Below, piece by piece: positions 981 to 31,138 of a DNA stretch of 64,000 bases. A program made the position numbers and the translations under genes. Every line of letters starts with the position of its first letter. Position 1 is the stretch's first letter. Origin of the DNA: Chamaelirium japonicum (Eukaryota; Streptophyta; Magnoliopsida; Liliales; Melanthiaceae); the NCBI GenBank assembly GCA_947650365.1, contig OX393552.1:47880999-47944998 (forward strand). The letters run 5' to 3'. Below the pieces are notes generated by a model. It had not been told where the DNA came from, made no database searches, and worked only from the letters and a program-made list of their open reading frames with translations.

Positions 981-1004
981 GATCCATTCTAATTAGAATG
1001 GATC
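981..1004. repeat. Perfect 24-bp palindrome at an orientation switch
   Basis: The 24 bases centred between 992 and 993 equal their own reverse complement: GATCCATTCTAA is followed by its mirror TTAGAATGGATC. The F block on the left turns into an R block here without loss of satellite sequence. A near-identical junction with one mismatch lies at 7222-7245. Confidence 0.95.
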
Positions 1005-1056
1005 GTGCGAATGAATTAGAATGGATTGTACGAATGAATTAGAATGGATACATTCG

Positions 1057-1068
1057 TGCGAATTCGCA
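1057..1068. repeat. 12-bp palindrome at an R-to-F switch
   Basis: TGCGAATTCGCA is a perfect palindrome at which the short R block (993-1062) returns to F orientation. It differs from the CTAATTAG-type axis at 981-1004, so at least two kinds of dyad serve as switch points. Confidence 0.9.
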
Positions 1069-11389: not shown

Positions 11390-14300
11390 CGAATGAATTA
11401 GAATGGATCGTGCGAATGATTTTGAATGGATCGTACGAATGAATTAGAATGGATACATTTGTGCGAATGAGTTAGAATGGATCATACGAATGAATTAGAA
11501 TGGATCGTACGAATGAATTAGAATGGATCATACGAATGAATTAGAATGGATCGTGCAAATGAATTAGAATGGATTGTACGAATGAATTAGAATGGATACA
11601 TTCGAGCGAATGAATTAGAATAGATCGTAGGAATGAATTAGAATGGATCATACGAATGAATTAGAATGGATCGTGCGAATGAATTAGAATGGATTGTATG
11701 AATGAATTAGAATGGATACATTCGTGCGAATGAATTAGAATGGATCAGACGAATGAATTAGAATGGATCGTATGATTCATTCTAATTCATTCGTACGATC
11801 CATTCTAATACATTCATACGATCCATTCTAATTTATTCGTACGATCCATTCTAACTCATTCGGTGGATCCATTCTAATTTATTCGTACGATCCATTCTAA
11901 TTCATTTGCACGATCGATTCTAATTTACGCGTACGATCCATTCTAATTCATTCATACGATCTATTCTAATTCATTCGCACGAATGTAACCATTCTAATTC
12001 ATTTGTACGATTCATTCTAATTCATGCGTATAAGCTATTCTAATTCATTTGTACGATCCATTCTAATTCATTCGTACGATCCATTCTAATTCATTCGCAC
12101 CAATGTATCCATTCTAATTCATTCGTACAATCCATTCTAATTCATTCGCACGATCCATTCTAATTCATTCGTACGATCCATTCTAATTCATTCGTACGAT
12201 CTATTCTAATTCATTCGTACGATCCATTCTAATCCATTCGCACGATCCATTCTAATCCATTCGTACGATCCATTCTAATTCATTCGTACAAATGAATTAG
12301 AATGGATCGTATGAATGAATAAGAATGGATCGTACGAATGAATTAGAATGGATCGTGCGAATGAATTAGAATGAATCGTACGAATGCATTAGAATGGATA
12401 CATTCGTGCGAATGAATTAGAATGGATCGTACGAAAGAATTAGAATGGATCATACAAATGAATTAGAAAGGTTACATTCGTGAGAATGAATTAGAATGGA
12501 TCGTACGAATGAATTAGAATGGATCGTACGAATGAATTAGAATGGATACATTCAAGCGAATGAATTAGAATGGATCGTACGAACGAATTAGAATGGATCA
12601 TAGGAATGAATTAGAATGGATCGTGCAAATGAATTAGAATTTATAGTGCAAATGAATTAGAATGAATCATACGAATGAATTAGAACGGATTCGTGCGAAT
12701 GAATTAGAATGGATCGTACGAATGAATTAGAATGGATCATACAAATGAATTAGAATGGATACATTCGAGCAAATGAATTAGAATAGATCGTAGGAATGAA
12801 TTAGAATGGATCATGCGAATGAATTTGAATGGATCGTACGAATGAATTAGAATGGATCATACAAATGAATTAGAATGGATACATTCGAGCGAATGAATTA
12901 GAATAGATCGTACGAATGAATTAGAATGGATCGTACGAATGAATTAGAATGGATCGTACGAATGAATTAGAATGGATCGTGCGAATGATTTTGAATGGAT
13001 CGTACAAATGAATTAGAATGGATCGTACGAATGAATTAGAATGGATCATACAAATGAATTAGAATGGATCGTGCGAATGATTTTGAATGGATCGTACGAA
13101 TGAATTAGAATGGATACATTTGTGCGAATGAGTTAGAATGGATCATACGAATGAATTAGAATGGATCGTACGAATGAATTAGAATGGATCATACGAATGA
13201 ATTAGAATGGATCGTGCAAATGAATTAGAATGGATTGTACGAATGAATTAGAATGGATACATTCGAGCGAATGTATTAGAATAGATCGTAGGAATGAATT
13301 AGAATGGATCATACGAATGAATTAGAATGGATCGTGCGAATGAATTAGAATGGATTGTATGAATGAATTAGAATGGATACATTCGTGCGAATGAATTAGA
13401 ATGGATCAGACGAATGAATTAGAATGGATCGTATGATTCATTCTAATTCATTCGTACGATCCATTCTAATACATTCATACGATCCATTCTAATTTATTCG
13501 TACGATCCATTCTAACTCATTCGGTGGATCCATTCTAATTTATTCGTACGATCCATTCTAATTCATTTGCACGATCGATTCTAATTTACGCGTACGATCC
13601 ATTCTAATTCATTCATACGATCTATTCTAATTCATTCGCACGAATGTAACCATTCTAATTCATTTGTACGATTCATTCTAATTCATGCGTATAAGCTATT
13701 CTAATTCATTTGTATGATCTATTCTAATTCATTCGTACGATCCATTCTAATTCATTCGTACGATCCATTCTAATTCATTCGCACCAATGTATCCATTCTA
13801 ATTCATTCGTACGATCCATTCTAATTCATTCGCACGATCCATTCTAATTCATTCGTACGATCCATTCTAATTCATTCGTACGATCCATTCTAATTCATTC
13901 GTACGATCCATTCTAATCCATTCGCACGATCCATTCTAATCCATTCCTACGATCCATTCTAATTCATTCGTACAAATGAATTAGAATGGATCGTATGAAT
14001 GAATAAGAATGGATCGTACGAATGAATTAGAATGGATCGTGCGAATGAATTAGAATGAATCGTACGAATGCATTAGAATGGATACATTCGTGCGAATGAA
14101 TTAGAATGGATCGTACGAAAGAATTAGAATGGATCATACAAATGAATTTGAAAGGTTACATTCGTGAGAATGAATTAGAATGGATCGTACGAATGAATTA
14201 GAATGGATCGTACGAATGAATTAGAATGGATACATTCAAGCGAATGAATTAGAATGGATCTTACGAACGAATTAGAATGGATCATAGGAATGAATTAGAA

Positions 14301-14720
14301 TGGATCGTGCAAATGAATTAGAATTTATAGTGCGAATGAATTAGAATGAATCATACGAATGAATTAGAACGGATTCGTGCGAATGAATTAGAATGGATCG
14401 TACGAATGAATTAGAATGGATCATACAAATGAATTAGAATGGATACATTCGAGCGAATGAATTAGAATAGTTCGTACGAATGAATTAGAATGGATCATGC
14501 GAATGAATTTGAATGGATCGTACGAATGAATTAGAATGGATCAAACTAATGAATTAGAATGGATACATTCGAGCGAATGAATTAGAATAGATCGTAGGAA
14601 TGAATTAGAATGGTTACATTCATGCGAATGAATTAGAGTGGATCGTACGAATGAATTTGATCGTACGAATGAATTAGAATGGTTCGTACGAATGAATTAG
14701 AATGGATCGTACAAATGAAT
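11390..14720. repeat. Tandem duplication of a 1.66-kb multi-monomer satellite block
   Basis: Two adjacent copies share rare variants in the same order. Examples are GAATGATTTTGAATGG at 11414 and 13075, the switch TATGATTCATTC at 11771 and 13432, and GGATACATTCGAGCG at 11594 and 13255, all offset by exactly 1,661 bp. From GCACCAATG (12097 and 13781) onward the offset becomes 1,684 bp, meaning the second copy gained one 23-bp monomer (around 13,707-13,730). Each copy includes both F and R blocks, so the duplication is younger than those inversions. Outer ends are approximate. Confidence 0.88.
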
Positions 14721-17040
14721 TAGAAAGGTTACATTCGTGAGAATGAATTAGAAAGGATCGTACGAATGGATTAGACCGCATTGTACGAATGAATTAGAAT
14801 GGATCATACGAATGAATTAGAATGGATCATACGAATGAATTAGAATCGATCGTGCGAATGAATTAGAATCGATCGTACGAATGAATTAGAATGGATCGTA
14901 CCAATGAATTAGATCGTACGAATGAATTAGAATGGATCGTACGAATGAATTAAAATGGATACATTCATACGACTGAATTAGAATGGATCGTGCGAATTAA
15001 TTAGAATAGATCGTACGAATAAATTTGAAGGGATACATTTGTGCGAATGAATCTGAATGGATTGTATGAATGAAATACAATGGATCGTACGAATGAATTA
15101 GAATGGATCATACGAATGAATTAGAATAGCGCATACGAATGAATTAGAATGAATCGTACAAGTGAATTAGAATGGTTACATTCGTGCGAATGAATTAGAA
15201 CAGATCATACGAATGAATTAGAATGGATCGTACGAATAAATTAGAATGGATCGTGCGAATGAATTAGAATGGATCGTACGAATGAATTAGAATGGATCGT
15301 ATGAATGAATAAGAATGGATCGTACGAATGCATTAGAATGGATACATTCGTGCGAATTAATTAGAATGGATTCATTCTAATTCATTCGCACGATCCATTC
15401 TAATTCATTCGTACGATCCATTCTAATTCATTCGCACGATCCATTCTAATCCATTCGTACGATCCATTCTAATCCATTTGTACGATCCATTCTAATCCAT
15501 TCGTACGATCCATTCTAATTCATTCGCACGATCCATTCTAATTCATTCATACGATCCATTCTAATTCATTCGCTCGAATGTATCCATTCTAATTCATTCG
15601 TTCGATCCATCTTAATTTATTCGTACGATCTATTCAAATTCATTCGCATGATCCATTCTAATTCATTCGTACGATCCATTCTAATCATTCTCACGAATGT
15701 AACCTTTCTAATTCATTTGTATGATCCATTCTAATTCATTCGTACGATCCATTCTAATTCATTCGCACGAATGTATCCATTCTAATGCATTCGTACGATT
15801 CATTCTAATTCATTCGCACGATCCATTCTAATTCATATGTATGATCCATTCTTATTCATTCATACGATCCATTCTAATTCATTTGTACGAATGAATTAGA
15901 ATGGATCGTACGAATGGATTAGAATGGATCGTGCGAATGAATTAGAATGGATACATTCGTACGAACGAATTAGAATGGATCGTATGAACGAATTAGAATG
16001 GATCGTACGAATGAATTAGAATGGTTACATTCGAGCGAATGAATTAGAATGGATCGTACGAATGAATTAGAATGGATCATAGGAATGAATTAGAATGGAT
16101 CGTACGAATGGTTTAGAACGCATTTTACGAATGAATTAGAATGGATCGTACAAATGAATTAGAATGGATATATTCATGAGAATGAATTAGAATGGATCGT
16201 ACGAATGAATTAGAATAGATCGTGCGAATGAATTAGAATGGATAGTGCGAATGAATTAGAATGGATCATACGAATGAATTAGAATGGATCCACCGAATGA
16301 GTTAGAATCGATCATACGAATGAATTAGAATGGATCGTACGAACGAATTAGAATGAATCGTACGAGCCATTCTAATTCATTCGTCCGATCCATTCTAATT
16401 CATTCGCACGAATGTATCCATTCTAATTCATTGAATGAATTAGAATGGATCATACGAATGAATTAGAATGGATCGTGCGAATGAATTAGAATGGATTGTG
16501 CGAATGAATTAGAATGAATACATTCGTGCGAATGAATTAGAATTGATCGTACGAATGAATTAGAATGGATCGTGCGAATGAATTAGAATGAATCGTATGA
16601 ATGAATTAGAATGGATCGTACGAATGAATTAGAAATGGATACATTTGTACGAATAAATTAGAATGGATTGTACGAATGAATTAGAATGGATACATTCTTG
16701 TGAATAAATTAGAATGGATCGTATATTCGTGCAAATAAATTAGAATAGATCATACGAATGAATTTGAATGGATCATAGAATGAATTAGAATGGATCGTGC
16801 AAATGAATTAGAATGAATCGTACGAATAAATTAGAATGGATCGTACGAATGTATTAGAATGGATACATTTGTACGAATAAATTAGAATGGATTGTACGAA
16901 TGAATTAGAATGGTTACATTATTGTGAATAAATTGGAATGGATCGTATATTCGTGCAAATAAATTAGAATGGATCATACGAATGAATTTGAATGGATCGG
17001 ACGAATGAATTAGAATGGATCGTATGAATGAATTAGAATG

Positions 17041-17045
17041 GATCA
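17041..17045. repeat. Target-site duplication, left copy (GATCA)
   Basis: GATCA directly precedes the TG of the left LTR and is matched by GATCA at 31134-31138 after the last CA of the element. Five-base duplications are typical of Ty3/gypsy integration. GATCA alone is common in this satellite, but joining the flanks with one GATCA also restores an exact 23-bp monomer. Confidence 0.85.
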
Positions 17046-17242
17046 TGTTCGGGGGATTTTCGCTGGTCCGTGCGGGCTGCCTGCAAGACAAAGAAAAGAG
17101 AACGTGAGAACGGCTGGCTCCCTTAGGAGCGCAGACCCTCCGACGCTCAAGTCAGTCACGGTGGCACAACGGCGAGCTTTAGTGGACGAAAGTGGAAGGG
17201 GATAAGGTTTTGAACCTGTACTATGGAGCCTGGGGGTGAGCA

Positions 17243-17248
17243 TTTATA
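17243..17248 (-). promoter_or_regulatory. LTR TATA box (3' LTR copy)
   Basis: TATAAA in element sense, inside a conserved GCTATAAATGCTC context found in all three LTRs. It is the likely core promoter for element transcription, placing U5 in roughly the last 170 bases of the LTR. Confidence 0.6.
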
Positions 17249-17659
17249 GCAATCGGCGGCCTACCGTGGCCCAACACGTGGAGATTCTTCTGGCGCCTTC
17301 TAGACCCCCCACGTTCTGGCTCGCGTGGGTCTGACAGTCCTTGGTACTCGTGCCCTGACATTCTGTTGTCAAGCCTGCCAGGCGGTTTGAGTGGGGGAGG
17401 GAATCTTTCTTGTCGTGGCCAGGTGGCCATTCTGGAATGTTCAAGTCTGGGCGATCTCAAAACTGACTCTGGCGGGCTTCCATGGACGCTAGTCCACGTA
17501 GCCTCCGTGGGATTTCGATACCTGGCCACCTTTATGTCTTTCTATGGGGGCGACCTCCGGTGGGAAGCTAGGGCGAGCTCGTCCTGCGTTGCTCCGCCTT
17601 CTCTTCCACATCTATCAAGAGTCGGACCTCGCAGGAGTGACCTCTTCGATAAATAGGAG

Positions 17660-17890
17660 AGTCTTGGCGAGCTTGGCGAGCTCCGGAGTGGGTTTGGGCG
17701 AGCTCCTGAGCGAGAATGGGCGGGCTCCTGAGCGAGCATGGGCGAGCTCGGGCGAGCTCCTTAGCGAGCATGGGCGAGCTTAGGCGAGCTCCTGACTCCT
17801 GAGCGAGCTTTGGCGAGCTCCCGAGTGAGCTTAGGTGAGTTTTGGCGAGCTCCTTAGTGAGCTTAGGCGAGCTTCTGAGCGAGCTCTATG
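17660..17890. repeat. GAGCTC-rich minisatellite inside the 3' LTR
   Basis: Imperfect units of about 22 bp built on GCGAGCTCCTGAGCGAGC, with T/A/C variants. The same tract lies in the other two LTRs (about 28670-28925 and 30230-30515). LTR lengths of 948, 994 and 1,016 bp differ by roughly two, one and three such units, so slippage here explains the size differences. It lies within U3, so it may alter promoter spacing. Confidence 0.8.
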
Positions 17891-17993
17891 CCTAGGCCCC
17901 CTCAGCCCAATGTGGATCTCGCTCCCTGTCAAGATGATTTGGTGAGCACGGGGGTGGAGCGAACTCCAGGGCAGATTTCAGCTACCCCCAACA

Positions 17994-18005
17994 TTACCCC
18001 CTCCT
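17994..18005 (-). promoter_or_regulatory. Polypurine tract (PPT) before the 3' LTR
   Basis: In element sense it reads AGGAGGGGGTAA immediately upstream of the LTR start TGTTGGGGG. A purine-rich run touching the 3' LTR is the plus-strand cDNA primer site of LTR retroelements. An inverted identical copy sits at 30106-30117 next to the third LTR. Confidence 0.85.
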
Positions 18006-18054
18006 GAGGGAGCGACCAAGGAGACTTTGGCACTTGCTCAGGAGTCTTGTTGCA

Positions 18055-18715
18055 CATGCCGGGCGGACTGGGAGTACCAGTCATTGGCGGCTTCCACCTT
18101 GTGGGCTGCGGGCACCCGCCGTGGGCGGTCTGCGCCGAGAGTTTTGACTGTCAGTATTTCACAAACGCTGGGCGGGCCGGGACCGTCAACCACGAGCGAT
18201 CTCCTTCCGGCGTGAGCTCATCACTCGCGGTCAGGGTCTGCCTCAGGCGAGCTGCGGGCACCAGCCATGGGCGGTCTGCGCCGAGAGCTTTGACTCTCAG
18301 TACTTTATAACGTTGGGCGGGCCGCGAGCATCAGCCACGAGCGATCTCCTTCCGGTGCGAGCTTGCCACACGCGGACAGGGTCTGCTTTGGGCGAGCTTG
18401 GGCACCAGCCACGGGCAATCTGCGTCGAGAGTTTTGACTCTCAGTACTTTATAACGCTGGGCGGGCCGCGAGCATCAGCCACGAGCGATCTCCTTCCGGT
18501 GCGAGCTTGCCACACGCGGACAGGGTCTGCTTCAGGCGAGCTTGGGCACCAGCCACAGGCGGTCTGCGCCGAGAGTTTTGACTCCCAGTATTTCACAAAC
18601 GCTGGGCGGGCCGGGAGCGTCAGCCACGAGCGATCTCCTTCCGGTGTGAGCTCATTACTCGCGGTCAGGGTCTGCCTCGGGCGAGCTGCGGGCACCAGCC
18701 GTGGGCGATCTTGTG
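18055..18715. repeat. About 145-bp tandem repeats upstream of the antisense gene
   Basis: Four to five imperfect copies. The landmark GCGATCTCCTTCCGG recurs at 18196, 18341, 18485 and 18630 (spacing 145, 144, 145). Each unit has a small dyad such as GAGAGTTTTGACTCTC (6-bp stem, 4-base loop) that includes the W-box-like core TTGACT, followed by GCTGGGCGGGCC. The tract lies between the PPT and the TATA box of the plus-strand gene, so it is both the element's 3' region and that gene's upstream region. The open frames across it (for example 18313-18918) are by-products of repetition. An inverted copy spans about 29400-30060. Confidence 0.85.
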
Positions 18716-19017
18716 ACTTGGGTATCGCTCCGAATCTCCAACGGTCGCTTCACCTTAAATGCGACGCGAGGCTCAACGCTGATACGGTGAATCTCATCAT
18801 GAGATCCCGATCGGTGCGAAACACGTGTCTCCTCCTCATTCGCGCTTCTTTTGTCAGTAATGACAGTGTCGGCGCCGGCGCAGCTTTTTCCACGCGTGGC
18901 CCACGCGGCACTGCCTGATTGGCGAAGGGCGAGCTGTCACTTCGATCGCCGTCACGTCGTCTCGCCGCGCGCGCTTGGGCATTAACTGCGGATCGATTCA
19001 CCTGTCTTTCACTTGCC

Positions 19018-19025
19018 TATAAATA
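19018..19025 (+). promoter_or_regulatory. TATA box of the antisense gene
   Basis: TATAAATA within GCCTATAAATAGGGG, about 100 bases before the start codon at 19121. Transcription should begin near 19050, giving a leader of about 70 bases that ends CTCCC before ATGGC, a context good for plant translation initiation. An inverted copy is present at 29086-29093. Confidence 0.7.
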
Positions 19026-20618
19026 GGGGATGGGGGGCGATTTTTACCGCTGCATGAAAACAGCTCTCCCTTCTCCCATAACTTTCTCAACTCGCAGCTC
19101 GCTAGCGCCCTCTTGCTCCCATGGCTTCCTCTGCTGCTGCTTCTTCTTCAGCCGCTGCTGCTGCCGCTGCGACCTCTCGGGGGGAGCCTCTCAATGCCGC
19201 CCCCATCTCGGTGCTCGCTCCAGGCACCGAAAGAGAGGCTCCTCCCAAGGAGCCCGCCGTCCTCTGGTTCAACGACATCGGGGGCGTGCCCGTCCCCGAG
19301 AGTCTACGGACAGCGGCGGGTATCCCTCAAGAGCTCGCTATTCTCCCCTTCCCGAGATCGGGGAGACCGCTCTCCGGAACCGCGGTCTCCGTGGGGCAAA
19401 TATGGTCAGGGCTTCGGCTGCCCTTGAACCATCTAGCCAGCGAGCTCCTGGAGCTGGCGGGCTTATGCCCCGCCCAGCTCCCAGGCAACTCGTGGGGGAT
19501 TCTCTACGAGCTTTCTCAAATCGAGGAAGCCCTCAACTTGAGGATCCCCCTGGCCTACCTCTTGAAGAAGTGGTCCCTCAAGCCGGGGACAGTCTTCAGC
19601 GAGGTCGACTGCGGCCACTTCTACCTCTCAGGCCGCCCCGGCGAGGTGCTGCCCTTCTCCGCGGTCGAGAACAAGGACCGGTACTGGAAGGAGTATTCGT
19701 TCGTGGTCGAGGGCAACTGGCGAGGTCCCTGCGCTGGAGTCTGCTCTCTTCCCGGCAGACCGCCTCTGCCGGTCTTCAAGGAGATCGCGGAGTATCGCCC
19801 CAAGGGGAAGAAATGCATCTCCGCAGCCCGAGAGAAATCTCTCGATGAGGCGATCTTGTACTTCCTCGGGGGGCGGACTCCCGAGAAGATCCTGGCGCTG
19901 GACTTCTCCTTCCTCTAGAAGGATCTCCGGACCGGGACCGTCACCGCCCGGCATAAGGTGATGCGGAAGAAGGTCGCGGTCTCCCGGCCTGCTGTTGCGA
20001 CCTCCGCTGCGGGGACCTCGGCGAAGAAGGGGAAGAAGCGGGCTTCGCCCATTCAGATCGCCGACAAGGACACCCTCGAGATGCTTCACGAGGAGGATGT
20101 CGCGCCACCGCCGCCACCAGCCCGCGAAGCAGCCCCAGGTCAGGCGTCCACCCTTTCTGTCATTCCTTCGAGGGCCCCAGTCCCAGAGCCTCGGCGACGT
20201 CGTATTTCCTTCGTCGAGCCCGAGGATCCGCGCGTCGAGCTTCTTCTCAGTATGGCGGAAGTGGAGTCCCCAATGGCTGAAGTGCTGATGCGCGGATTCC
20301 CAGGAGACCTGACTAAAACCTTGTTTGTTGCGGTGATGAATCCAGAGGAGGACGCTCCGCGGAAGAAGTTGAAGAAGAAGAAGACTCCTCCAGCCCGCCC
20401 GTCGGGAGAGGACAGCATTGTTCGGGAGGCTCGTGAAGCCTTCCAACAAGTCGTCGAGGATCGGAGGAAGGCCGCCCTCGCGGAGGCGGGCTTGGGATCA
20501 GCCGATGATCTCAGCACGACCTCCAGCTCCGATGACGAGGAGCGGGCTTCAGGAAAAGAGCCCGCGGCTGCAACTGCGGGGCTTCCCCCGCCCTTCGAGG
20601 GATCGGCTCCGCCGAGCT

Positions 20619-21122
20619 CAAACCCTCCGCCTGCTCCGAGCTCGATGCCAACACCGGCCGCGCCTGCTCCCAGCACGTCTGCGCCCGCGCCTGCGCCCTT
20701 CGCTGCTAGCGCGCCTGCGCCCGAGCCCACGCCCGAACCCGCGCCTGCACCCGCGCCTGAGCCCGCCGCTGCTATCGCGCCTGCGCCCGAGCCCGCGCCC
20801 GAGCCCGCGCCTGCACCCGCGCCCGAGTCCGCGCCTGCACCCGCGCCTGAGCCCGCCGCTGCTATCGCGCCTGCGCCCGAGCCCACGCCCGAGCCCGCGC
20901 CCGAGCCCGCGCCTGAGTCCGTGCCTGTCAGCACGCCGGCGCCCGAGCCCGCGCTCGCGCCTCCGCCTGCCCTCAGCGCGCCCGCACCCGAGCCCGCCCC
21001 TGCGCATGCTACCAGCGCGCCCGCGCCCGAGCCTGCGCCTGCACCTGCTATCAGCGCGCCCGCGCCCGAGCCTGCGCCTGCACCTGCTATCAGCGCGCCC
21101 GCGCCCGAGCCCGCGCCTGGCG
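20619..21122 (+). repeat. Pro-Ala-Glu repeat tract inside the antisense gene
   Basis: About 168 codons encode mainly PAPEPAP-type repeats, with blocks such as SAPAPEPAPAPAI repeated near the end (about 20,975-21,115). The DNA is a GC-rich minisatellite based on GCGCCCGAGCCCGCGCCTG. Because it has few stops on either strand, it creates long mirror frames (for example minus 20140-20934, Gly/Ala/Ser-rich) that should be ignored. Such a tract is probably a disordered linker between the N-terminal domain and the coiled coil. Confidence 0.85.
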
Positions 21123-21478
21123 CTCTTGAGGTTCCTCCTCTCCCGGAGCTGGGCGGGTTGGTCTATTGGTCTCCAGAACTAGGGGCCATTCTGGATGACC
21201 TACCTTGCTCCAGCTCGGAAGCCTCTGACCCGGACCTGCCGGGGCGAAGGGAAGCCATCGTGCCTTCTCTTATCAACGAAGGGGTTGCCGGCGCTCAAGG
21301 GGCCGAGCCCGCTGCTGCCGCCATCAGTGCGCCCCCTCCTGCTGCTCCCACCGAGGCGAGCCAAGCGGGCTCCTCCTCTGGCGGTCCCGAGCGCGCCCCT
21401 TTCTTCATGCGGGAGATCCTGGGATGCAACATCTTCGCCCGGACTCCCTACATTGCTCTCATCAACCGACTCCTCGAG

Positions 21479-21556
21479 GTAAGATTACCTTCATACTTCT
21501 TTGTCCCGAACCCCTGCTTTAATTTCTAACTCTTTAACTGTTTTCCCTTTCCGTAG
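21479..21556 (+). other. 78-bp spliceosomal intron in the antisense gene
   Basis: Donor CTCGAG|GTAAGATT and acceptor TTTCCGTAG|GTTGAG. The intron is T-rich compared with the GC-rich exons and has the candidate branch site TCTAAC followed by a pyrimidine tract. It falls between codons (phase 0). Reading into the intron meets a stop at 21527-21529, while splicing carries the frame on to 22105, with the 43 codons before the first Met at 21686 all open. Confidence 0.8.
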
Positions 21557-22105
21557 GTTGAGCGAGTCAGCCGGGCTCTCGCCGACGAGGTCGCGGGCGT
21601 TGCGGGGGACACCGTCGTCCTCTACGATGACACTCTCCATGACTCGGAGAGGAGAGTAGACGAGCACATCCTCCGCATTCGCCAGATGGACCGGTCGGCC
21701 GAGCTGCAGGCCGAAGTGGACCAGCTTCGCCAGCAGGTCACCTCCTTTAACAAGGAGGTCGACAAACTGTGCCAGCAGGCCGCCACCTTTACCACCACTC
21801 TAGCTTCGGCTGAGGATGCCCACGACCGCGCCCTATCCGATATGCAAGGGGCCCGTCGAGCTGAAGAGGCCGCCCAAAAGGAAATCTCCGAGCTTCGACG
21901 TCAGTTGGCGGCTTCTAGGGATGAGATCGCGTCTCTGAGGGAAACGCATCTCCAAGACCTCCACTCTCAGCAAAGCCGCCTGCAGGCACAGCTCGTCGAA
22001 CTCCTGCGGAAAGGCGCGCTCGATGCCATCGAGAAGTATAAGACCGAGAGGTCGAAAAAGAGGAAGCGCGGCGATGACGACGATGCGGGTGCTGGCCCAG
22101 CCTAG

Positions 22106-22559
22106 GGTCTCTTTTGTAACCCTCTTGTAATTTTCTAATAATGAATGGAATATTCTCTTTAAGCTCGCCTCTATGTTTCTTTCTTTCTCTGTCTTGCTCA
22201 TGAGTCCGCTTTAGGAGTTCGCAGCGATCTCGAGAGTGATACCCCGGGCGAGGCAGCTAATTCGATTCAACCTTTTATTTTAAAGTATATGCAAACGAAA
22301 AACTCGGCATGCTCGCAAAAACTCGATAGTCTCTGAGCCCGGAAAACGCTTAAGCGAACCAAAAGACTTCAAAAACTTCCCTACACTCAGAGACTTAAAC
22401 CATTTTTATTTTTAAAGGAAACTAATAAGTGCTAGCTGCCCCCTGCCCGGTTAATTTCTCTCGATGATCCTGTTTGGTGGGCTCGCCCTTTGAGGGGTTT
22501 GCCAACGCCAGGATGCTTCCGTTCATGGCAGGTGAACGTGAAGGATCCTGGTTAGGTTT
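22106..22559. other. Convergent 3' region of the antisense gene
   Basis: Follows the stop codon of the antisense gene. It turns AT-rich at once (TTTTGTAACCCTCTTGTAAT, then TCTAATAATGAATGG), fitting a plant 3' UTR and a weak poly(A) signal near 22136. No gene is supported. Transcripts from pol on the other strand would end toward this area or run on to the 3' LTR. Confidence 0.5.
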
Positions 22560-22978
22560 AGAGTCCACTAGGCAGCGGACTTCCCCGGGAAGCTCAAGGT
22601 CGACCACTGGCTGCCTCTGGGGATCCTGGTCTTGCTTTAAGTCCGCACAACGGCGGACTGCCCCGGGAAGCTCAAGGTTGCCCACTGGCTGCCTCTGAGG
22701 ATCCCGGTCTTGCTTTAAGTCCGCGCAACGGCGGACTGCCCCGGGAAGCTCAAGGTCGCCCACTGGCTGCCTCTGAGGATCCCGGTCTTGCTTTAAGTCC
22801 GCACAACGGTGGACTACCCCGGGAAGCTCAAGGTCGCCCACTGGCCGCCTCTGAGGATCCCGATCTTGCTTTAAGTCCGCGCAACGGCGGACTGCCCCGG
22901 GAAGCTCAAGGTCGCCCACTGGCTGCCTCTGAGGATCCCGGTCTTGCTTTAAGTCCGCACAACGGCGGACTGCACACT
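22560..22978. repeat. 78-bp tandem repeats between pol and the antisense gene
   Basis: About five copies. The landmark CTGCCTCTG (one copy has CCGCCTCTG) starts at 22611, 22689, 22767, 22845 and 22923, exactly 78 bp apart. Since 78 is a multiple of three, the minus strand shows a 165-residue open frame (22422-22919) with a 26-residue repeat containing DLELPGAVRRCADLKQDRD. It may be a remnant of a coding segment downstream of integrase or only a non-coding minisatellite; nothing identifies a product. Confidence 0.85.
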
Positions 22979-23082
22979 ATAGATCATACGGGCTCTGTCT
23001 GCGCCGAGCTTCCTAGTTAAATTGTTGAAAACCTCCATCGTTCATTCATAACTTCTTCAGTAGATAATTTACAAAAATTTCC

Positions 23083-24793
23083 TTAGGCATAGAACTTGCG
23101 AAGGTGCAGAGCGTTCCAAGGTCGCTCTAACAGGTCGCCTCCAGCGGTCATCAACCGGTAAGCCCCCGAGCTTCCTGCTTCGTGTATTATGTATGGGCCT
23201 TCCCAGTTCGCCGCGAGCTTTCCGGCATTAGGCTCTTGCGTGTTGACGAACACCTTTCTCATCACCAGATCGCTGGCCTTGAATGCCCGATGACGGACTC
23301 TTTTGTCATAGGCGCGCTTCATCTCTTGTCTGTATCCGGCGAGGTGCAGATTGGCGCGCTCTCGTCTTTCTTCGAGCTGATCAAGGGAGTCGACGAGCAG
23401 TCCGTCGTTGTCGACCTCCGCCGACGCAAGCCTTCTTTCAGTGGGCAGCTCGGCCTCTATGGGTAGCACGGCTTCGCAACCAAAAGTGAGACTGAAAGGG
23501 GATTCGTTAGTTGACCGACGTGGAGTAGTGCGATAGGCCCACAAGACTCCATCGAGCTCCTGCTCCCACAATCCTTTTTTTCCTTCCAGCCTCTTCTTGA
23601 GGTTGTCCAAGATCACGCGATTCGTCGCTTCGGCCTGCCCATTGCTTTGAGGGTACCTTGGGGAAGAGAACCTTAGGTCGACTCCATATTCAACACAAAA
23701 ACTTCTGACCAAGTGATTGTCGAACTGGCGACCATTGTCGGTGATAAGTACCCGAGGCAGACCGAACCGGCAGAAAATATTCTTCCAAAGGAAGTCTTTT
23801 ACCTGCTTCTCGCCTATCTTAGCTAGCGGGACCGCTTCTACCCATTTGGTGAAGTAGTCCGTAGCTACTAGAATGAATTTCTTTTGCCGGGCTGACACAG
23901 GGAAAGGTCCCACAATGTCCAACCCCCATTGCTGGAAAGGCCACGGGCTCGCCAGAGGATGCAGTTCTTCTGCGGGCATATGGTTCGTGGTGGCGTGCTT
24001 CTGGCACTGGATGCACCTCTGGGCGACCTTCAAAGCGTCTTGCTCCAGAGTGGGCCACCAGTATCCTTGCCTTCGTACTTTCGCAGCCAGAGACCGCCCA
24101 CCAGCGTGGTTTCCCAGCTCGCCAGAGTGAATGCACTTTAGAACTTCTTCGGTTTCCGGGCTCTCGACGCAACGGAGACTTGGCCCGCCAAAGGACCTTC
24201 GAAAAAGGCGATCCCAGCGAATGAGATAGCGCCCAACGCATTTCTCCACTCGCCGGGCTTCCTCTCTATCCTCTGGTAGCTCGCCCTTCTGGAGAAAGCG
24301 AAAAATGGGGGCGGTCCACCCGCTGAGTGGTACGTCGGCGGAGACTTGGTTAACAACGGGCTCCACTAGTTGGAGCCGAGACTGATTTTGGACCTCGATG
24401 AGAATCTGGCGAGCCTCTGATGTTCCCAGCAAAGAGGCGACGTTTGCCAAAGCATCAGCTCGCCTATTATCGGCTCGCGGAATTTGCTCGAAGGAGATCT
24501 TTTCGAACTCCGCGGCCTTGTGCTTCACCAGATCCACATAGCCCGCCATTCGTGCGTCCCGAGAGGCGTACTCCCCATTGACTTGGCAAACAATTAGCTG
24601 GGAATCGCTAAAGACCTTCAAGCGTTTGGCGCCTACCTCTTGAGCGAGCTCCAGGCCAGCCAGCAGCGCCTCATATTCCGCCTCATTGTTGGTAGCTGCG
24701 AAATCCAGTCGGACTGACTTCTCCAGAAGTACCGACTGGGCGATCAGTACGACCCCGATCCTAGCCCCCAGAGCGTTGGAGGATCTGGTTATA
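23083..24793 (-). pseudogene. pol: pol: RNase H and integrase portion
   Basis: Open frame of 574 codons if counted from the Met at 24807; the first residues belong to the deletion junction. The RNase H region (about 9-125) starts SSNALGARIGVVL, has E44 in NNEAEYEALLAGL, D68 in FSDSQ and D118 in RRADALA; the usual first Asp just before the SSN motif is missing. Integrase: zinc-binding H227, H234, C265, C268; catalytic D297 (WGLDIVGP), D357 (ITDNGRQF) and E393 (NGQAEATN), a D-D-35-E arrangement; C-terminal GPY-type motif NWEGPYI near 535. The frame ends KFYA with no chromodomain. The integrase would join cDNA ends to host DNA in the nucleus. The integrase core looks intact, but it could only be made as part of a polyprotein that is broken upstream. 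Confidence 0.9.
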
Positions 24794-25441
24794 CCCAGAA
24801 TATCCATCCATGAAGGACAGGGCCTGGAACCCGACCGCTGCGTCGACCAGTGCGCCTATTCTCGGAAGAGGAAATCCGTCCTTCGGGCATGCCTTGTTGA
24901 GGTCGGAGAAGTCAATGCACACCCTGACCGCTCTGCTCTTCTTATGCACAGCCACGATATTGGAGATCCACTCGGGGAAGTGCGCCTCGTGGATGAAGCC
25001 GGCTCGCTCCAGCTTGTCTATCTCCGCCGCCACTGCAACGGACTTCGCAGCAGGTATGTGCCGAGCTTTCTGCTTGACCGGCGGGAACTCCTTCATGGTG
25101 TGCAGACGATGACAGGCGACCTCCGGGTCAATCCCTGGCATGTCCGCGAAGCTCCAAGCGAATACGTCACGGTATTCCCTGAGTAAGTTGGTTATGGCCA
25201 GGACCTCGCCCTTGGTTAGCGAGGTCCCGAGGCTAACAACTCTTGGCCCTTCTTTGCCGCCAATGTCGACCTCTTGAAGTGGTTCGGCAATTGGAAAACT
25301 TCCTCTCTCGGGGGTTGTCGGGCGACCTCCCTCCTCCAACTTAAGGTCCACACCGCTCCCACCCGGGGGTGGAGTAGGGGACTTAAGCGAGGAGGCCTCC
25401 AGCGGGCTCCCCAATAGCTCGCTCGTAGCGGGCGGTAATTG
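24761..25441 (-). pseudogene. pol: pol: truncated reverse transcriptase
   Basis: Same frame as the protease part, after a TAG at 25442-25444. It carries the N-terminal RT region typical of plant Ty3/gypsy elements: DVFAWSFADMPGIDPEVACH, then EIDKLERAGFI, then VRVCIDFSDLNKACPKDGFP and motif A, SFMDGYSGYNQI, which holds one catalytic Asp. Just after this motif (about 24778-24787) the sequence jumps into RNase H in another frame and this frame stops. Motif B, the YxDD motif C, thumb and connection regions are absent; by comparison with the family about 1.1 kb is missing. The enzyme cannot be functional. Confidence 0.9.
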
Positions 25442-26593
25442 CTAGGAGGGTGCGGGCCTCTTGGCCTCGGCGACCTCCATGTCCATGAGGTGAAGGACAT
25501 CCTGCTCGCATCGGGTAGCGGCTACCTGATCACCCCGAATTACTACGACCCCGCTCGCGGTCGGGAATTTGAGGGCCTGATGGTTGGGTGAAGCTACCAT
25601 ATTCATTTGCCTTAGCCAAGGCCGCCCCAGGATGGCGTTAAATGCGGAACTTCCATCCACTACCGCGAAGCGGACTTGGCGAGCCTCCGGGCCAGCGGTC
25701 ACAGTGAGGGTTATCTCCCCTGCCACTTTGGCGACCTCGCCGGTGAATCCACTGAGGGAGCTCGTCGAGGGAGACAGGTCGGCGAGTCTCAACCCCATCC
25801 GCAGGTAGGCCGACAGAAAAAGGATGTCCACGGCGCTCCCCGAATCAACCAGAGCTCGCCTCACCTCGATGTTAGCCATCATCAGGCATATGACGAGGGG
25901 GTCATTGTGGGGTGTAACGACCCCAGTCATGTCATCTTCCGAAAACCAGAGAAAATCGCGGGCTTCCACCCTTGGTGCTTGAAGTAAAGTAGGAGTTAGC
26001 GAGACGGAAAATACCTTCTGTGCCCGCTCCATCGCCCTGACTCGTCGGCGAGCTTCATTACTGGATCTCGGGCCGCTCAGCCGCCCGCTAATGGTATGGC
26101 AGACCGCCGGTCCTCCCGGGGGAGGCGGAGGCAGGGCGGGTTCAGCGGGCCCCGGGCGATCTCCCTCCCGAGGAGTCCGTGCCGGTACCACCTCGAACCT
26201 CCTTGGAGGCGAAATAAACTGATTCAAGTGGCCCTGTGTGACCAAATCCTCAAGGTGGTTCTTGAGAGCCCGGCATCTGTTAGTGTGATGCCCAGGGCTT
26301 CGATGAAAAGCGCACCGCCGCGAGTTGTCGGTAGAGCCAGGCTCTCCGACCTGCAGGGGTGGCGGGTACTGGAAGAAAGGTTCGTTCCGAATCTGATGGA
26401 AGACTTGTCCTGGCGAGTGGGTTAGCACGGTGAAGTCCCGCTCCCCGGGTCCTGGAGGCAGGCGCCAGTTCGCCGGCCTTCCAGCGACAGCCGCGGGGGC
26501 TTCAGCAGGCTGTTCAGCAGGAGCAGCGGGCGGTCCGGGCAAAGGCACCGCCAGGGGCACCTCCCTTCTCTCCACGGCCTTAACGACAAGCGG
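25442..26593 (-). pseudogene. gag-pol: gag C-terminus (zinc knuckle) and aspartic protease
   Basis: Frame continuous with gag except for a TGA at 26594-26596. Numbering from the Met at 26575: Pro/Ala-rich linker, a knuckle-like motif C88-A-F-H91...H96/H97...C101 followed by RALKNHLEDLV, as in Tat-type Gag proteins, then the protease with active-site D244-S-G in RRALVDSGSAVDILF and ILGRPWL at 315-321. The protease would cut the polyprotein in the virus-like particle. It ends with TAG at 25442-25444. Both stops are single in-frame codons with open sequence on either side; the TGA could come from deamination of a CGA codon. Confidence 0.88.
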
Positions 26594-27947
26594 TCACGGG
26601 GCCGGAGGAGGTCGCTGCTCGACTGCCTTTCCCTTCCGGTCTAGCACAGCGTCTTCGAGCTTGATGTGTTGCTGGACCAGGGCAAATAGTTCAATCATCG
26701 TGTGAGGGTCCTTGATCACTAGAGCGTCATGAAGCTTGCAACCCTCGGGGAGGGCGCTTCTGAAAGCACTCACCACGGTACGATCTTGGCCCGCCGCGTC
26801 TTCCAGAGCGAGGTAGGCGCTTCGGAATCGCGTTGCGAAGCACCAGAGCATCTCGCGAGCTCCCATGGTTAAGGTAAACAGAGACTCGATTCTCTTCGGG
26901 GGCTGCCTATTGCAGCGATACTGCTCCAGGAATAGCCTAGAGAGAGTTGGAAAGTCGGGGATCATGCCGGGCGGCAACTTGTGGAACCAGTTCAATGCCG
27001 AGCCGGTCAAACTGCTCGGGAATGCTCGGCACAAGACGTGGTCTTGGTCCCGGAAAAAATAGAAGCTTTCCGTAGGCCAAGAGATGGTCAACGGGATCCT
27101 GCGATCCGTCGAACAATACAAACTTCGGGGGGGTCCAGTGGTGCGGAAAACCCCCTCGGTGGACCTCGCTGGTGAAAGGCGAGCTTCCTCCGTGGGCGGC
27201 GAGGTCTTCCAGTAAATCTACTGGCGCACTAGATCGCTGCCAGTGCCCGGGGAGAACTCCCAGAGGCGGCTGCGCAGGTCCTAGGCGGTCTCGTACGCTC
27301 CCTTGTGGCAAGGTCGGTCCCACCCCGCGGTGACCCTCGGGGGCTACCGCTCGGCGGCCTCCTTGCTGTCCGCTCGTGGATTCCTTCAGCGCGCCTGTTG
27401 GTCTATGGGAGGCCGTTGCCTCACGAGCTTCGGAAGGTATTTTCACCGCGGGCTCTTTCCCTCGTCGTCGATGGCGCGGGTTGTGATCCCGCTCTAGAGA
27501 CCTTGCCTCCGACCCGTCAGAATCGACGCTCCGGCTACGGCGGCAAGGAAGGGTCGCGCGCGAGGTCGCCTGGTTGCTAGACCGCTGGGTTACCAGCTTC
27601 TGCAGCCTTGTGAGCGGGGTTTCCGGCACCCCGCGCGCAGCTGCTCTTTCGACTAGAGGTTCCGGCTGGGAAACCTGCCGCGCCGGAGCGACCGTGGGCG
27701 GTCGCGATGTTGACACCGGTGGTCGCACCGAAGACGCCGTCTTTGCCGGCCCAGACCGCCGGCTGGCCGCTGGAGCCTGACGCAATCGTGTCAGTTCCTC
27801 CATCATGGCCCGCTGGGTGGCCAACATCTCCAACAAGAGTTGGTCGCTGAGCGGGACCTGGGGCTGAGGGGTCTCAACAGGAGGCTCGCTGCGCGCAGAT
27901 CTCACACGAGTCCTCGGTCGCCTGCGTCCCCTCATCACCGGAGCCAT
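26594..27947 (-). pseudogene. gag: gag, N-terminal and capsid region, frameshifted
   Basis: Starts at ATG 27947, about 70 bases after the PBS. The first part has an Arg-rich N-terminus, a short predicted helix (QLLLEMLATQRAMMEELTRL), a long Pro/Arg/Ser-rich stretch and the beginning of the capsid domain (PPKFVLFDGSQDPVDHLLAY). The frame then shifts by one at or near an A6 run on the plus strand (27054-27059). The capsid domain continues in the other frame with CRAFPSSLTGSALNWFHKL, FPTLSRLFLEQY and FATRFRSA (Retrotrans_gag family, PF03732), ending at a TGA (26594-26596). Gag would form the particle shell. The homopolymer indel may be biological or a sequencing error. Confidence 0.88.
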
Positions 27948-28017
27948 CTTTGGAGTTACGAGAGCAAACGGCGCTCAACCGCGTGGTCGTGGGTGTTCTC
28001 GCAGGAACCAGTCGAAG

Positions 28018-28035
28018 ATCCCACAGACGGCGCCA
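28018..28035 (-). promoter_or_regulatory. Primer-binding site (PBS)
   Basis: In element sense, the 5' LTR ends GAACA, then TT, then TGGCGCCGTCTGTGGGAT. TGG at the start pairs with the CCA end of a tRNA, and a TGGCGCC-type PBS is common in plant Ty3/gypsy elements. I have not assigned the tRNA. Its position fixes 28038-29031 as the 5' LTR of the minus-strand element. Confidence 0.85.
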
Positions 28036-28037
28036 AA

Positions 28038-29031
28038 TGTTCAAGGGATTTTCGCTCGTCCGTGCGGGCTGCCTGCAAGACAAAGAAAAGAGAACGTGAG
28101 AACGGTTGGCTCCCTTAGGAGCGCAGACCCTCCGACGCTCAAGTCAGTCACGGTGGCACAACGGCGAGCTTTAGTGGACGAAAGTGGAAGGGGATAAGGT
28201 TTTGAACCTATACTATGGAGCCTGGGGGTGAGCATTTATAGCAATCGGCGGCCTACCGTGGCCCGACACGTGGAGATTCTTCCGGCGCCTTCTAGACCCC
28301 CCACGTTCTGGCTCGCTTGGGTCTGACAGTCCTTGGTACTCGCGCCCTGACATTCTGTCGTCAAGCCTGCCAGGCGGTTTGAATGGGGGAGGGAATCTTT
28401 CTTGTCGTGGCCAGGTGGCCATTCTGGAATGTTCAAGTCTGGGCGATCTCAAAACTGACTCTGGCGGGCTTCCATGGACGCTAGTCCACGTAGCCTCCGT
28501 GGGATTTCGACACCTGGCCACCTTTATGCCTTTCTATGGGGGCGACCTCCGGTGGGAAGCCAGGGCGAGCTCGTCCTGCGTTGCTCCGCCTTCTCTTCCA
28601 CATCTATCAAGAGTCGGACCTCGCAGGAGTGACCTCTTCGATAAATAGGAGAGTCTTGGCGAGCTTGGCGAGCTCCGGAGTGGGTTTGGGCGAGCTCCTG
28701 AGCGAGAATGGGCGGGCTCCTGAGCGAGCATGGGCGAGCTCCTGAGCGAGCTTGGGCGAGCTCCTGAGCGAGCTCGGGCGAGCTCCTTAGCGAGCATGGG
28801 CGAGCTCCTGAGCGAGCTTAGGCGAGCTCCTGACTCCTGAGCGAGCTTTGGCGAGCTCCTGAGTGAGCTTAGGTGAGTTTTGGCGAGCTCCTTAGTGAGC
28901 TTAGGCGAGCTTTTGAGCGAGCTCTATGCCTAGGCCCCTTCAGCCCAATGTGGATCTCGCTCCCTGTCAAGATGATTTGGTGAGCACGGGGGTGGAGCGA
29001 ACTCCAGGGCAGATTTCAGCTACCCCCAACA
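28038..29031 (-). repeat. 5' LTR (994 bp)
   Basis: Direct repeat of the 3' LTR: plus strand begins TGTTCAAGGG and ends CTACCCCCAACA. It lacks the GGGGG shared by the outer two LTRs at this end (AAGGG instead of GGGGG). It drives gag-pol; TATA box at 28240-28235. On the U3 side there is no satellite target sequence. Instead TTACCCCC (29032-29039), the complement of PPT sequence, follows and leads into an inverted copy of the element's 3' end. Confidence 0.92.
28235..28240 (-). promoter_or_regulatory. TATA box of the 5' LTR
   Basis: TATAAA in element sense in the same context as in the other two LTRs. Transcription of gag-pol should begin about 30 bases downstream, near 28205, leaving a U5 of about 170 bases before the PBS. 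Confidence 0.62.
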
Positions 29032-29058
29032 TTACCCCCCCGATCGGCGCGAAACACG
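29032..29058. other. Rearrangement junction between the 5' LTR and the inverted 3' end
   Basis: After the LTR come TTACCCCC (as after the 3' LTR at 17994) and then CGATCGGCGCGAAACACG, which matches 18812-18829 in direct orientation with one difference. From 29059 the sequence is the reverse complement of 19054 back to 17046. So about 0.8 kb between the PPT side and the direct fragment has been skipped, joined through a run of C, and the copying direction then reversed. Confidence 0.8.
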
Positions 29059-29085
29059 CAGCGGTAAAAATCGCCCCCCATCCCC

Positions 29086-29093
29086 TATTTATA
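29086..29093 (-). promoter_or_regulatory. Duplicated antisense-gene TATA box, now facing the 5' LTR
   Basis: Reverse complement of the TATAAATA at 19018-19025. On the minus strand it points toward 29031 and so into the 5' LTR and gag-pol. Most of the leader (to about the GCAGCGG block) is preserved, but the start codon is lost. Confidence 0.65.
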
Positions 29094-30105
29094 GGCAAGT
29101 GAGAGACAGGTGAATCGATCCGCAGTTAATGCCCAAGCGCGCGCGGCGAGGCGACGTGACGGCGATCGAAGTGACAGCTCGCCCTTTGCCAATCAGGCAG
29201 TGCCGCGTGGGCCACGCGTGGAAAAAGCTGCGCCGGCGCCGACACTGTCATTACTGACAAAAGAAGCGCGAATGAGGAGGAGACACGTGTTTCGCGCTGA
29301 TCGGGATCTCATGATGAGATTCGCCGTATCAGCGTTGAGCCTCGCGTCGCATTTAAGGTGAAGCGACCGTTGGAGATTCGGAGCGATACCCAAGTCACAA
29401 GATCGCCCACGGCTGGTGCCCGCAGCTCGCCCGAGGCAGACCCTGACCGCGAGTAATGAGCTCACGCCGGAAGGAGATCGCTCGTGGCTGACGCTCCCGG
29501 CCCGCCCAGCGTTTGTGAAATACTGGGAGTCAAAACTCTCGGCGCAGACCACCCGTGGCTGGTGCCCAAGCTCGCCTGAAGCAGACCCTATCCGCGTGTG
29601 GCAAGCTCGCACTGGAAGGAGATCGCTCGTGGCTGATGCTCGCGGCCCGCCTAGCGTTATAAAGTACTGAGAGTCAAAACTCTCGACGCAGATTGCCCGT
29701 GGCTGGTGCCCAAGCTCGCCCGAAGCAGACCCTGTCCACGTGTGGCAAGCTCGCACCGGAAGGAGATCGCTCGTGGCTGATACTCGCGGCCCGCCAAGCG
29801 TTATAAAGTACTGAGAGTCAAATCTCTCGGCGCAGACCGCCCACGGCTGGTGCCCGCAGCTCGCCTGAGGCAGACCCTGACCGCGAGTGATGAGCTCACG
29901 CCGGAAGGAGATCGCTCGTGGCTGACGCTCCCGGCCCGCCCAGCGTTTGTGAAATACTGACAGTCAAAACTCTCAGCGCAGACCGCCCACGGCGGGTGCC
30001 CGCAGCCCACAAGGTGGAAGCCGCCAATGACTGGTACTACCAGTCCGCCCGGCATGTGCAACAAGACTCCTGAGCAAGCGCCAAAGTCTCCTTGGTCGCT
30101 CCCTC

Positions 30106-30117
30106 AGGAGGGGGTAA
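30106..30117 (+). promoter_or_regulatory. Inverted copy of the polypurine tract
   Basis: AGGAGGGGGTAA directly before the third LTR, identical to the PPT at 17994-18005 but on the opposite strand. It shows that the inverted segment is a copy of a true 3' end (PPT plus LTR). Confidence 0.85.
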
Positions 30118-31133
30118 TGTTGGGGGTAGCTGAAATCTGCCCTGGAGTTCGCTCCACCCCCGTGCTCACCAAATCATCTTGACAGGGAGCGAGATCCACA
30201 TTGGGCTGAAGGGGCCTAGGCATAGAGCTCGCTCAGAAGCTCGCCTAAGCTCACTAAGGAGCTCGCCAAAACTCACCTAAGCTCACTCGGGAGCTCGCCA
30301 AAGCTCGCTCAGGAGTCAGGAGCTCGCCTAAGCTCGCTCAGGAGCTCGCCCATGCTCGCTAAGGAGCTCGCCCGAGCTCGCTCAGGAGCTCGCCCGAGCT
30401 CGCTCAGGAGCTCGCCCAAGCTCGCTCAGGAGCTCGCCCATGCTCGCTCAGGAGCCCGCCCATTCTCGCTCAGGAGCTCGCCCAAACCCACTCCGGAGCT
30501 CGCCAAGCTCGCCAAGACTCTCCTATTTATCGAAGAGGTCGCTCCTGCGAGGTCCGACTCTTGATAGATGTGGAAGAGAAGGCGGAGCAACGTAGGACGA
30601 GCTCGCCCTGGCTTCCTACCGGAGGTCGCCCCCATAGAAAGACATAAAGGTGGCTAGGTGTCGAAATCCCACGGAGGCTACGTGGACTAGCGTCCATGGA
30701 AGCCCGCCAGAGTCAGTTTTGAGATCGCCCAGACTTGAACATTCCAGAATGGCCACCTGGCCACGACAAGAAAGATTCCCTCCCCCACTCAAATCGCCTG
30801 GCAGGCTTGACGACAGAATGTCAGGGCGCGAGTACCAAGGACTGTCAGACCCACGCGAGCCAGAACGTGGGGGGTCTAGAAGGCGCCGGAAGAATCTCCA
30901 CGTGTCGGGCCACGGTAGGCCGCCGATTGCTATAAATGCTCACCCCCAGGCTCCATAGTACAGGTTCAAAACCTTATCCCCTTCCACTTTCGTCCACTAA
31001 AGCTCGCCGTTGTGCCACCGTGACTGACTTGAGCGTCGGAGGGTCTGCGCTCCTAAGGGAGCCAGCCGTTCTCACGTTCTCTTTTCTTTGCCTTGCAGGC
31101 AGCCCGCACGGACCAGCGAAAATCCCCCGAACA
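30118..31133 (+). repeat. Third LTR, inverted (1,016 bp)
   Basis: Begins TGTTGGGGGTAGC and ends AATCCCCCGAACA on the plus strand, so it is the reverse complement of the left LTR. The TATA box is at 30931-30936 and reads rightward out toward the satellite. It contains the longest version of the GAGCTC minisatellite. It is flanked on the right by GATCA (31134-31138) and satellite. In hand alignment it shares the outer-end sequence with the 3' LTR but has its own private substitutions. Confidence 0.92.
30931..30936 (+). promoter_or_regulatory. TATA box of the inverted LTR, facing the right satellite arm
   Basis: TATAAA in GATTGCTATAAATGCTC. Because this LTR is inverted, a transcript from it would run through its U5 into the satellite from 31134 onward. 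Confidence 0.55.
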
Positions 31134-31138
31134 GATCA
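31134..31138. repeat. Target-site duplication, right copy (GATCA)
   Basis: Matches 17041-17045. The satellite resumes with TGCGAATGAATTAG, in R orientation as on the left side. Confidence 0.85.

Follow-up and report, generated by a model that had tools for sequence, protein, structure and literature searches.

The window analysed here, 64,000 nucleotides of Chamaelirium japonicum DNA (C4:47880999-47944998), is an array of a 23-bp satellite (1-17045 and 31134-64000) that is broken by a single 14-kb insertion. The insertion (17046-31133) is a Ty3/gypsy-type element whose sense strand is the minus strand, and it carries three long terminal repeats (LTRs), which we call L, M and R from left to right, the last of them inverted. 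Each of its two outer ends is a U5 end (left, TGTTCGGGGG; right, CCCCCGAACA) with GATCA next to it. The parts of the insertion and its immediate flanks are listed by position in the window and strand.

17041-17045, no strand: left 5-bp flank GATCA (target-site duplication, TSD)
17046-17993, minus: LTR L, 948 bp; U5 end outermost
17994-18001, minus: polypurine tract (PPT) before LTR L, GGGGGTAA in the sense direction
18002-19056, minus: 3' untranslated region (UTR) with ~144-bp tandem repeats inside; repeated inverted at 29055-30109
19121-21529, plus: antisense extra open reading frames (ORFs), 19121-19918 and 19958-21529, with a TATA-like box at 19018
23083-24807, minus: ORF with matches to an RNase H-like domain (RVT_3) and to a DDE integrase (rve, H2C2)
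25442-26575, minus: ORF with a weak aspartyl-protease match, below the Pfam cut-off
26594-27121, minus: gag ORF (Retrotrans_gag)
28020-28037, minus: candidate primer binding site (PBS), by sequence; PBS-like stretch TTTGGCGCCGTCTGTGGG directly after LTR M
28038-29031, minus: internal LTR M, 994 bp, between a PPT (U3 side) and the PBS-like stretch (U5 side)
29032-29039, minus: PPT beside the U3 end of LTR M
29040-29058, plus: 19-nt UTR piece, copy of 18807-18825 with one mismatch; its CACG end is common with the next arm
29055-30109, plus: inverted 3' UTR copy (reverse complement of 18002-19056)
30110-30117, plus: PPT before LTR R
30118-31133, plus: LTR R, 1016 bp, inverted; U5 end outermost
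31134-31138, no strand: right 5-bp flank GATCA

Inverted arms and the junction beside LTR M

The two ends of the insertion form inverted arms that extend over 17046-19056 and 29055-31133 and are 97-98% complementary in the aligned blocks (17046-17769 with 30410-31133, and 17771-19056 with 29055-30340). After the junction, the inverted stretch amounts to ~2.08 kb of UTR, PPT and LTR. An inverted repeat of 2 kb with exact LTR tips is well beyond chance. An initial annotation of this DNA had described an LTR facing one way on the left and reversed on the right with inverted ends of about 2.0 kb, TG and CA tips bordered by GATCA, and a direct-LTR element at 17046-29031 inside. The alignment of the arms and the sequence of the tips bear out the first two descriptions, and comparison of the LTRs confirms the bounds given in the third.

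The arms differ at 25 of 1063 UTR positions (21 of them transitions) and at 13 of 948 LTR positions, with three further length gaps in the LTR minisatellite. These differences bear on the possibility that the inverted arm is an assembly artefact, produced by a fold-back chimeric read or by collapsed haplotypes. Satellite surroundings are in general hard to assemble, but such an artefact would have to account for the differences between the arms, for an arm that ends exactly at the U5 tip and for satellite that resumes in register with a 5-bp duplication, all in a contig that spans 94.9 Mb. We regard it as highly improbable.

The initial annotation had the direct-LTR element followed by an inverted copy of its own 3' end, with a junction at 29031/29059. 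An inverted UTR-PPT-LTR does follow, after a PPT and a 19-nt UTR piece. Read outward from LTR M on the plus strand, the sequence is TTACCCCC (the PPT reversed, 29032-29039), then CCGATCGGCGCGAAACACG (29040-29058) and then sense UTR; within the window, TTACCCCC is present only at the three PPTs. The side of LTR M expected to face host DNA hence carries M's native 8-nt PPT, followed by collinear UTR after an 805-nt gap, and the orientation turns only after this collinear bit, ~0.23 kb further on. At the jump from PPT to UTR, the shared sequence is at most one C. At the turn point, CACG is common to the 19-nt piece and the opposite arm; L reads CATG there and R reads CACG, and the same site in 12 other UTR loci has CACG in four, CATG in four and a gap in four. 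The 19-nt piece serves as a third copy of the UTR, reading GCGCC against GCACC in L and GCGCT in R.

Two features lie beside the point at which the inverted arm ends (19056). It is near where transcription of the antisense ORF would be expected to begin, with the TATA-like TATAAATA at 19018 (window 18998-19120), and it is a few bases from a purine-rich tract on the sense strand (~19064-19077).

Copies in the genome and their target sites

The initial annotation had further proposed that such insertions could be a general route to foldback-like elements, and had called for a search of the same genome for the junction. In the genome searched (1.52 Gb, 3253 contigs), the junction 32-mer occurs once with up to three mismatches allowed. 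A search with the LTR, which scored 40 of 5163 first-look candidates, returned 42 matches, the 30 best of which made loci: three are the window's own and 27 are others, namely the copies most like R. Each locus was viewed with 1.5 kb on either side, so that folds further out would escape. The anatomy of the 27 is ordinary (12 3' LTRs, 10 5' LTRs, five solo or other); within this view, none of the 27 has the inverted arrangement, and none is a PPT-bearing LTR like M. Because the searches turned up no second copy, they give no support to a general route. The structure is a one-off in what was examined; rarer cases may exist. The single occurrence of the junction in the genome searched also led us to reject a foldback DNA transposon, a class whose inverted termini move jointly as a repeated family.

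Among the loci listed, element sequence in both orientations is found at the window's own loci and at one other, L194 (G000 C5:50948599-50952602), where LTRs of opposite orientation (151-789 and 1501-4004) have their U5 ends facing across ~0.7 kb of satellite. At another locus, L173 (G000 C130:675600-679615), a close relative is cut within the UTR at ~1154 and joined straight to satellite. A third relative, L230, lies on the plus strand ~11 kb past the end of the window.

Inverted LTRs are the normal termini of DIRS-1 (as described in the available part of PMC5633606), which raises the question of whether the element belongs to a DIRS-like or other lineage with this arrangement. Next to no probability attaches to this reading, because the element encodes a DDE integrase (rve, H2C2) and the 27 other LTR loci are of ordinary anatomy. 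A DIRS-like (tyrosine recombinase) element was likewise rejected at the level of proteins, as there is an rve integrase and no recombinase match in the seven ORFs scanned.

Flanking satellite carries information on how the insertion arrived. If the flanks are joined after removal of exactly 5 bases, they match satellite elsewhere in the window at 40 of 40 positions, and this is the sole perfect offset of the 24 tried (0-23). On a naive estimate, a 5-mer match between flanks is expected in 1.4% of cases. We withdrew the TSD as strong proof, however, once the target preference of the family was seen. Of 32 outer flanks of the 27 other loci, 27 lie in satellite, and 22 of these 27 have GATC within the outer five bases, compared to 5.7% of satellite 5-mers (p ~2e-23, a value that is overstated, as solo LTRs were counted twice and some loci resemble near-copies of each other). 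By type, GATCG/CGATC makes up 17 and GATCA/TGATC five of the 27 satellite flanks, whereas GGATC or GATCC is found in none of the 27 even though these are the commonest GATC 5-mers in the satellite. The family thus appears to insert site-specifically at GATC[G/A] of the 23-bp satellite, as shown for R-like copies only. In a survey of plant LTR elements, the part available describes TSDs as highly variable except in Phygy (PMC6317226).

With this preference, the chance that an independent second insertion would show correctly oriented GATCA rises from 1.4% to ~9% (1 of 15 U5-side flanks). The GATCA flanks that the initial annotation offered as evidence are therefore present on both sides but weigh less than was supposed. 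The orientation of the satellite reverses between the two U5 ends, as a single integration requires. An inverted duplication of one finished insertion was rejected, because both ends would then continue in identical sequence beyond U5, and the sequences there differ (TGATCCATTC beyond L and GATCATGCG beyond R).

Throughout the window, the satellite flips orientation at intervals of one to several kb. We read these flips as reflecting either frequent inversions or an array of mixed orientation.

LTR alleles, divergence and the origin of the insertion

A tree of the 30 LTRs groups L, M and R in a single clade (support 98/88; 98% of 200 bootstrap trees). All three have G at LTR position 573, which none of the 27 other LTRs shares. 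They also have 347T and 881T in common, each of which is found in one of the 27 (L180 and L173, respectively, the latter among the four nearest copies). Across the genome searched, the exact 28-mer around 573G has three occurrences, one each in L, M and R; with A or G allowed at 573 and up to one mismatch, there are 69 sites, of which three have G and 66 have A.

This allele argues against two independent insertions of opposite orientation in the same satellite, one of them already tandem or extended at M, that were later fused by a deletion in the UTR. Such a history would draw on the preference of the family for GATC[G/A] and on the crowding of copies (the cut L173, the opposite LTR fragment 0.7 kb off at L194, and L230 beyond the window), and some other loci are at least as close to the UTR arms as these are to each other. 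Yet it would have to produce an allele in all three LTRs that no other copy in the searched genome has, find GATCA in the right orientation, and begin from a PPT-bearing LTR of the kind seen at none of the 27 loci. We consider this origin very unlikely.

The LTRs have diverged from each other about equally. Relative to the nearest copies, L has seven private changes, M has 10 and R has five, and there is no derived change common to L and R against M. Pairwise LTR distances are 1.4-2.4%, which would correspond to ~0.5-0.9 million years at an assumed rate of 1.3e-8 per site and year. One clade and near-equal divergence point to one progenitor and to a structure that formed at or soon after insertion.

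These data also bear on a chromosomal origin. A normal element (17046-29031, GATCA on both sides) may have inserted first, and soon afterward template switching in the chromosome, of the kind described as microhomology-mediated break-induced replication (MMBIR) or fork stalling and template switching (FoSTeS), may have copied the L end backwards beside the right flank. The route would run through TGTT, common to the U5 and U3 tips, then through the CACG and C microhomologies, and then through long LTR homology. It accounts for the shared private allele, the flanks and the microhomologies, and the surrounding satellite is rich in orientation switches. However, it requires about four switches, one of them exactly at an LTR tip. 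A later copy of R from L should also share changes with L, and there are none; had R been copied from L at half the age of the element or later, the probability of no shared change would be ~0.08 or less, given a mean of at least five changes. In addition, 424A is common to L and M but not R. Chromosomal template switching is possible in our view, though unlikely. In view of 424A, R may or may not be a self-copy of L alone.

The initial annotation had suggested an aberrant cDNA that integrated by its two U5-type ends, and this part of its account remains the best fit with the LTR allele, the clade, the near-equal divergence and the flanks. The native PPT of M, the distinct sequence of the 19-nt piece, the reversal of the satellite between the U5 ends and the single occurrence of the junction count in its favour as well. 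We think it probable that one aberrant Ty3/gypsy cDNA, extended past LTR M, folded back or was joined at 1-4 nt of microhomology and integrated via two U5 ends.

Several observations count against this explanation, in addition to the modest value of the GATCA flanks. The satellite flips and the satellite-cut copy L173 show that local rearrangement occurs. L and M share 424A, whereas R and the 27 others have G; if real, this means that R was copied from another template, although 424 lies in a CpG, so that a parallel change is possible. Over a 345-nt part of the UTR, seven differences separate the arms, whereas R differs from L230, L162 and L171 at five positions each and L differs from L230 at six. 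Across this part, the arms share no change that is absent from other copies. When the seven sites at which the arms differ are compared with 12 other loci, L alone departs at two, R alone at one, and the copies vary at four. In our first search, the first 146 UTR bases of R agreed with the arm of L at 97% and with other loci at up to 99%. The UTR lends no support to a common progenitor and is silent or slightly contrary. The pattern fits separate decay of the arms from a common state, or a second, slightly different template for R.

A final conflicting point is that three of the 10 M-specific changes fall within the last 20 nt of U5, a tighter cluster than chance would give (p=0.0009). The changes are 997G, 1010T and 1011T (window 28038-28060). 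Neither 997G nor 1010T is in any of the other LTR ends compared; 1011T is also in L201 and L226. An excess of M changes across the R-U5 portion of the LTR is not significant (Fisher p 0.07-0.13).

Mechanism, known systems and classification

In the cDNA model, minus-strand synthesis would overrun LTR M, the 5' LTR, and enter PPT and UTR sequence, the cause being either a copied PPT primer or continuation on a second 3' end. A jump within the UTR could then be followed by a switch at the CACG microhomology onto an antisense strand, the molecule's own or a sister's, from which UTR, PPT and LTR would be copied out to the U5 end. Equally possible, host end joining may attach a 3'-terminal fragment of cDNA to a full cDNA at the latter's PPT-blocked end. 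Self-foldback and the joining of two cDNAs are not told apart by our data; a slight leaning toward two templates comes from 424A, which lies in a CpG, and from the UTR.

The DDE integrase would then pair the two U5 ends of the aberrant molecule. As PPT and extra DNA lie on the U3 side of LTR M, there would be no usable U3 tip, which leaves two U5 ends for pairing. Because the tips are near-identical (U5 TGTTCGGGGG, U3 TGTTGGGGG), this use of two U5 ends is plausible and asks little of the enzyme. With a DDE-type integrase (rve, H2C2), a 5-bp duplication at both ends is expected from one integration. We lean, with some reserve, toward the broader proposal that, in vivo, a plant Ty3/gypsy intasome can form on the two U5 ends of a single cDNA, hairpin-like or head-to-head, and give normal integration with a 5-bp duplication, so that inverted-LTR elements are born in a single step and missed by direct-LTR annotation. 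The anatomy, the U5/U5 termini with their 5-bp flanks, the allele detected in no LTR but these three and the single occurrence found are direct observations.

In the literature covered, the closest parallels are the tandem loci described below and the three-LTR complexes attributed to template switching in Triticeae, rice and maize (Sabot and Schulman 2007, PMC1950507). Like the insertion described here, the three-LTR complexes have an internal third LTR, a 5-bp flanking duplication and outer LTRs that are highly similar, and they too are inferred to form during reverse transcription and to integrate in a single piece; the model proposed for them includes continued minus-strand synthesis past the LTR. 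They consist of two full units that run in the same direction, and of their outer ends one is U3 and the other U5. In contrast, the third LTR here is inverted, both outer ends are U5, and in place of a second complete direct internal region there is an inverted unit of UTR (1.06 kb), PPT and LTR. We therefore describe the insertion as a new variant of the known three-LTR complex insertions, one with an inverted third LTR.

Other systems share single features with it. Tandem LTR-retrotransposon loci in plants have shared LTRs and 4-5-bp TSDs and are mostly gypsy elements, as seen in the available part of PMC11899658; the word 'inverted' is found twice in that part, both times in a reference title. 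A review states, in the portion available, that host alternative end joining acts on LTR-element cDNA (PMC12786077), and such microhomology joining by host repair, through alternative end joining (Alt-EJ) or non-homologous end joining (NHEJ), is a candidate step here. Foldback templated insertions at DNA breaks in yeast are also short inverted templated pieces at microhomology (PMC11724301), and a section heading of that paper places foldback insertions within extrachromosomal single-stranded DNA as well. The yeast insertions differ in being mostly ~5-34 bp, and retroelement integration is absent from the abstract and section list of the paper. DIRS-1 resembles the insertion in its inverted LTRs, but according to the available part of PMC5633606 it uses a tyrosine recombinase, not a DDE integrase, and the inverted LTRs are its normal state. 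In the open-access literature, covered mostly at the level of titles and abstracts, we recognized no report in which a plant element had integrated via two U5 ends, which is not proof of absence; at the same level, the sole match to 'inverted LTRs' together with 'retrotransposon' concerns Dictyostelium DIRS-1.

The insertion is a dated, genome-embedded case. It suggests that integration can proceed without regard to LTR identity (U3 versus U5), and that rescue is possible for cDNAs whose PPT ends were misprocessed. It appears to be a one-off accident that shows the flexibility of the insertion machinery. It also provides a searchable signature, an internal LTR with a PPT beside its U3 end plus two outward U5 ends with a TSD. 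With this signature, such events could be counted in long-read assemblies, where direct-LTR tools likely overlook them.

Membership in Ty3/gypsy is indicated by the Retrotrans_gag, RVT_3, H2C2 and rve matches, together with direct LTRs, a PPT and the PBS-like stretch. No Pfam match to reverse transcriptase was found in the ORFs scanned, and its reading frame appears split. The Tat clade (Retand/Ogre-like) is defined by an extra archaeal-type RNase H (aRH) between RNase H (RH) and integrase (INT) and by an extra 3' ORF. Here RVT_3 stands just before INT, where it may be either RH or aRH, and antisense ORFs are present. The antisense ORFs have no Pfam match above the cut-off, and the ORFs scanned have no match to Transposase_28 or a plant mobile domain. 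Matches to viral and prokaryote contigs (the best 80 of 244 and the best 80 of 157, respectively) have 27-48% identity and lie mainly in the RNase H domain.

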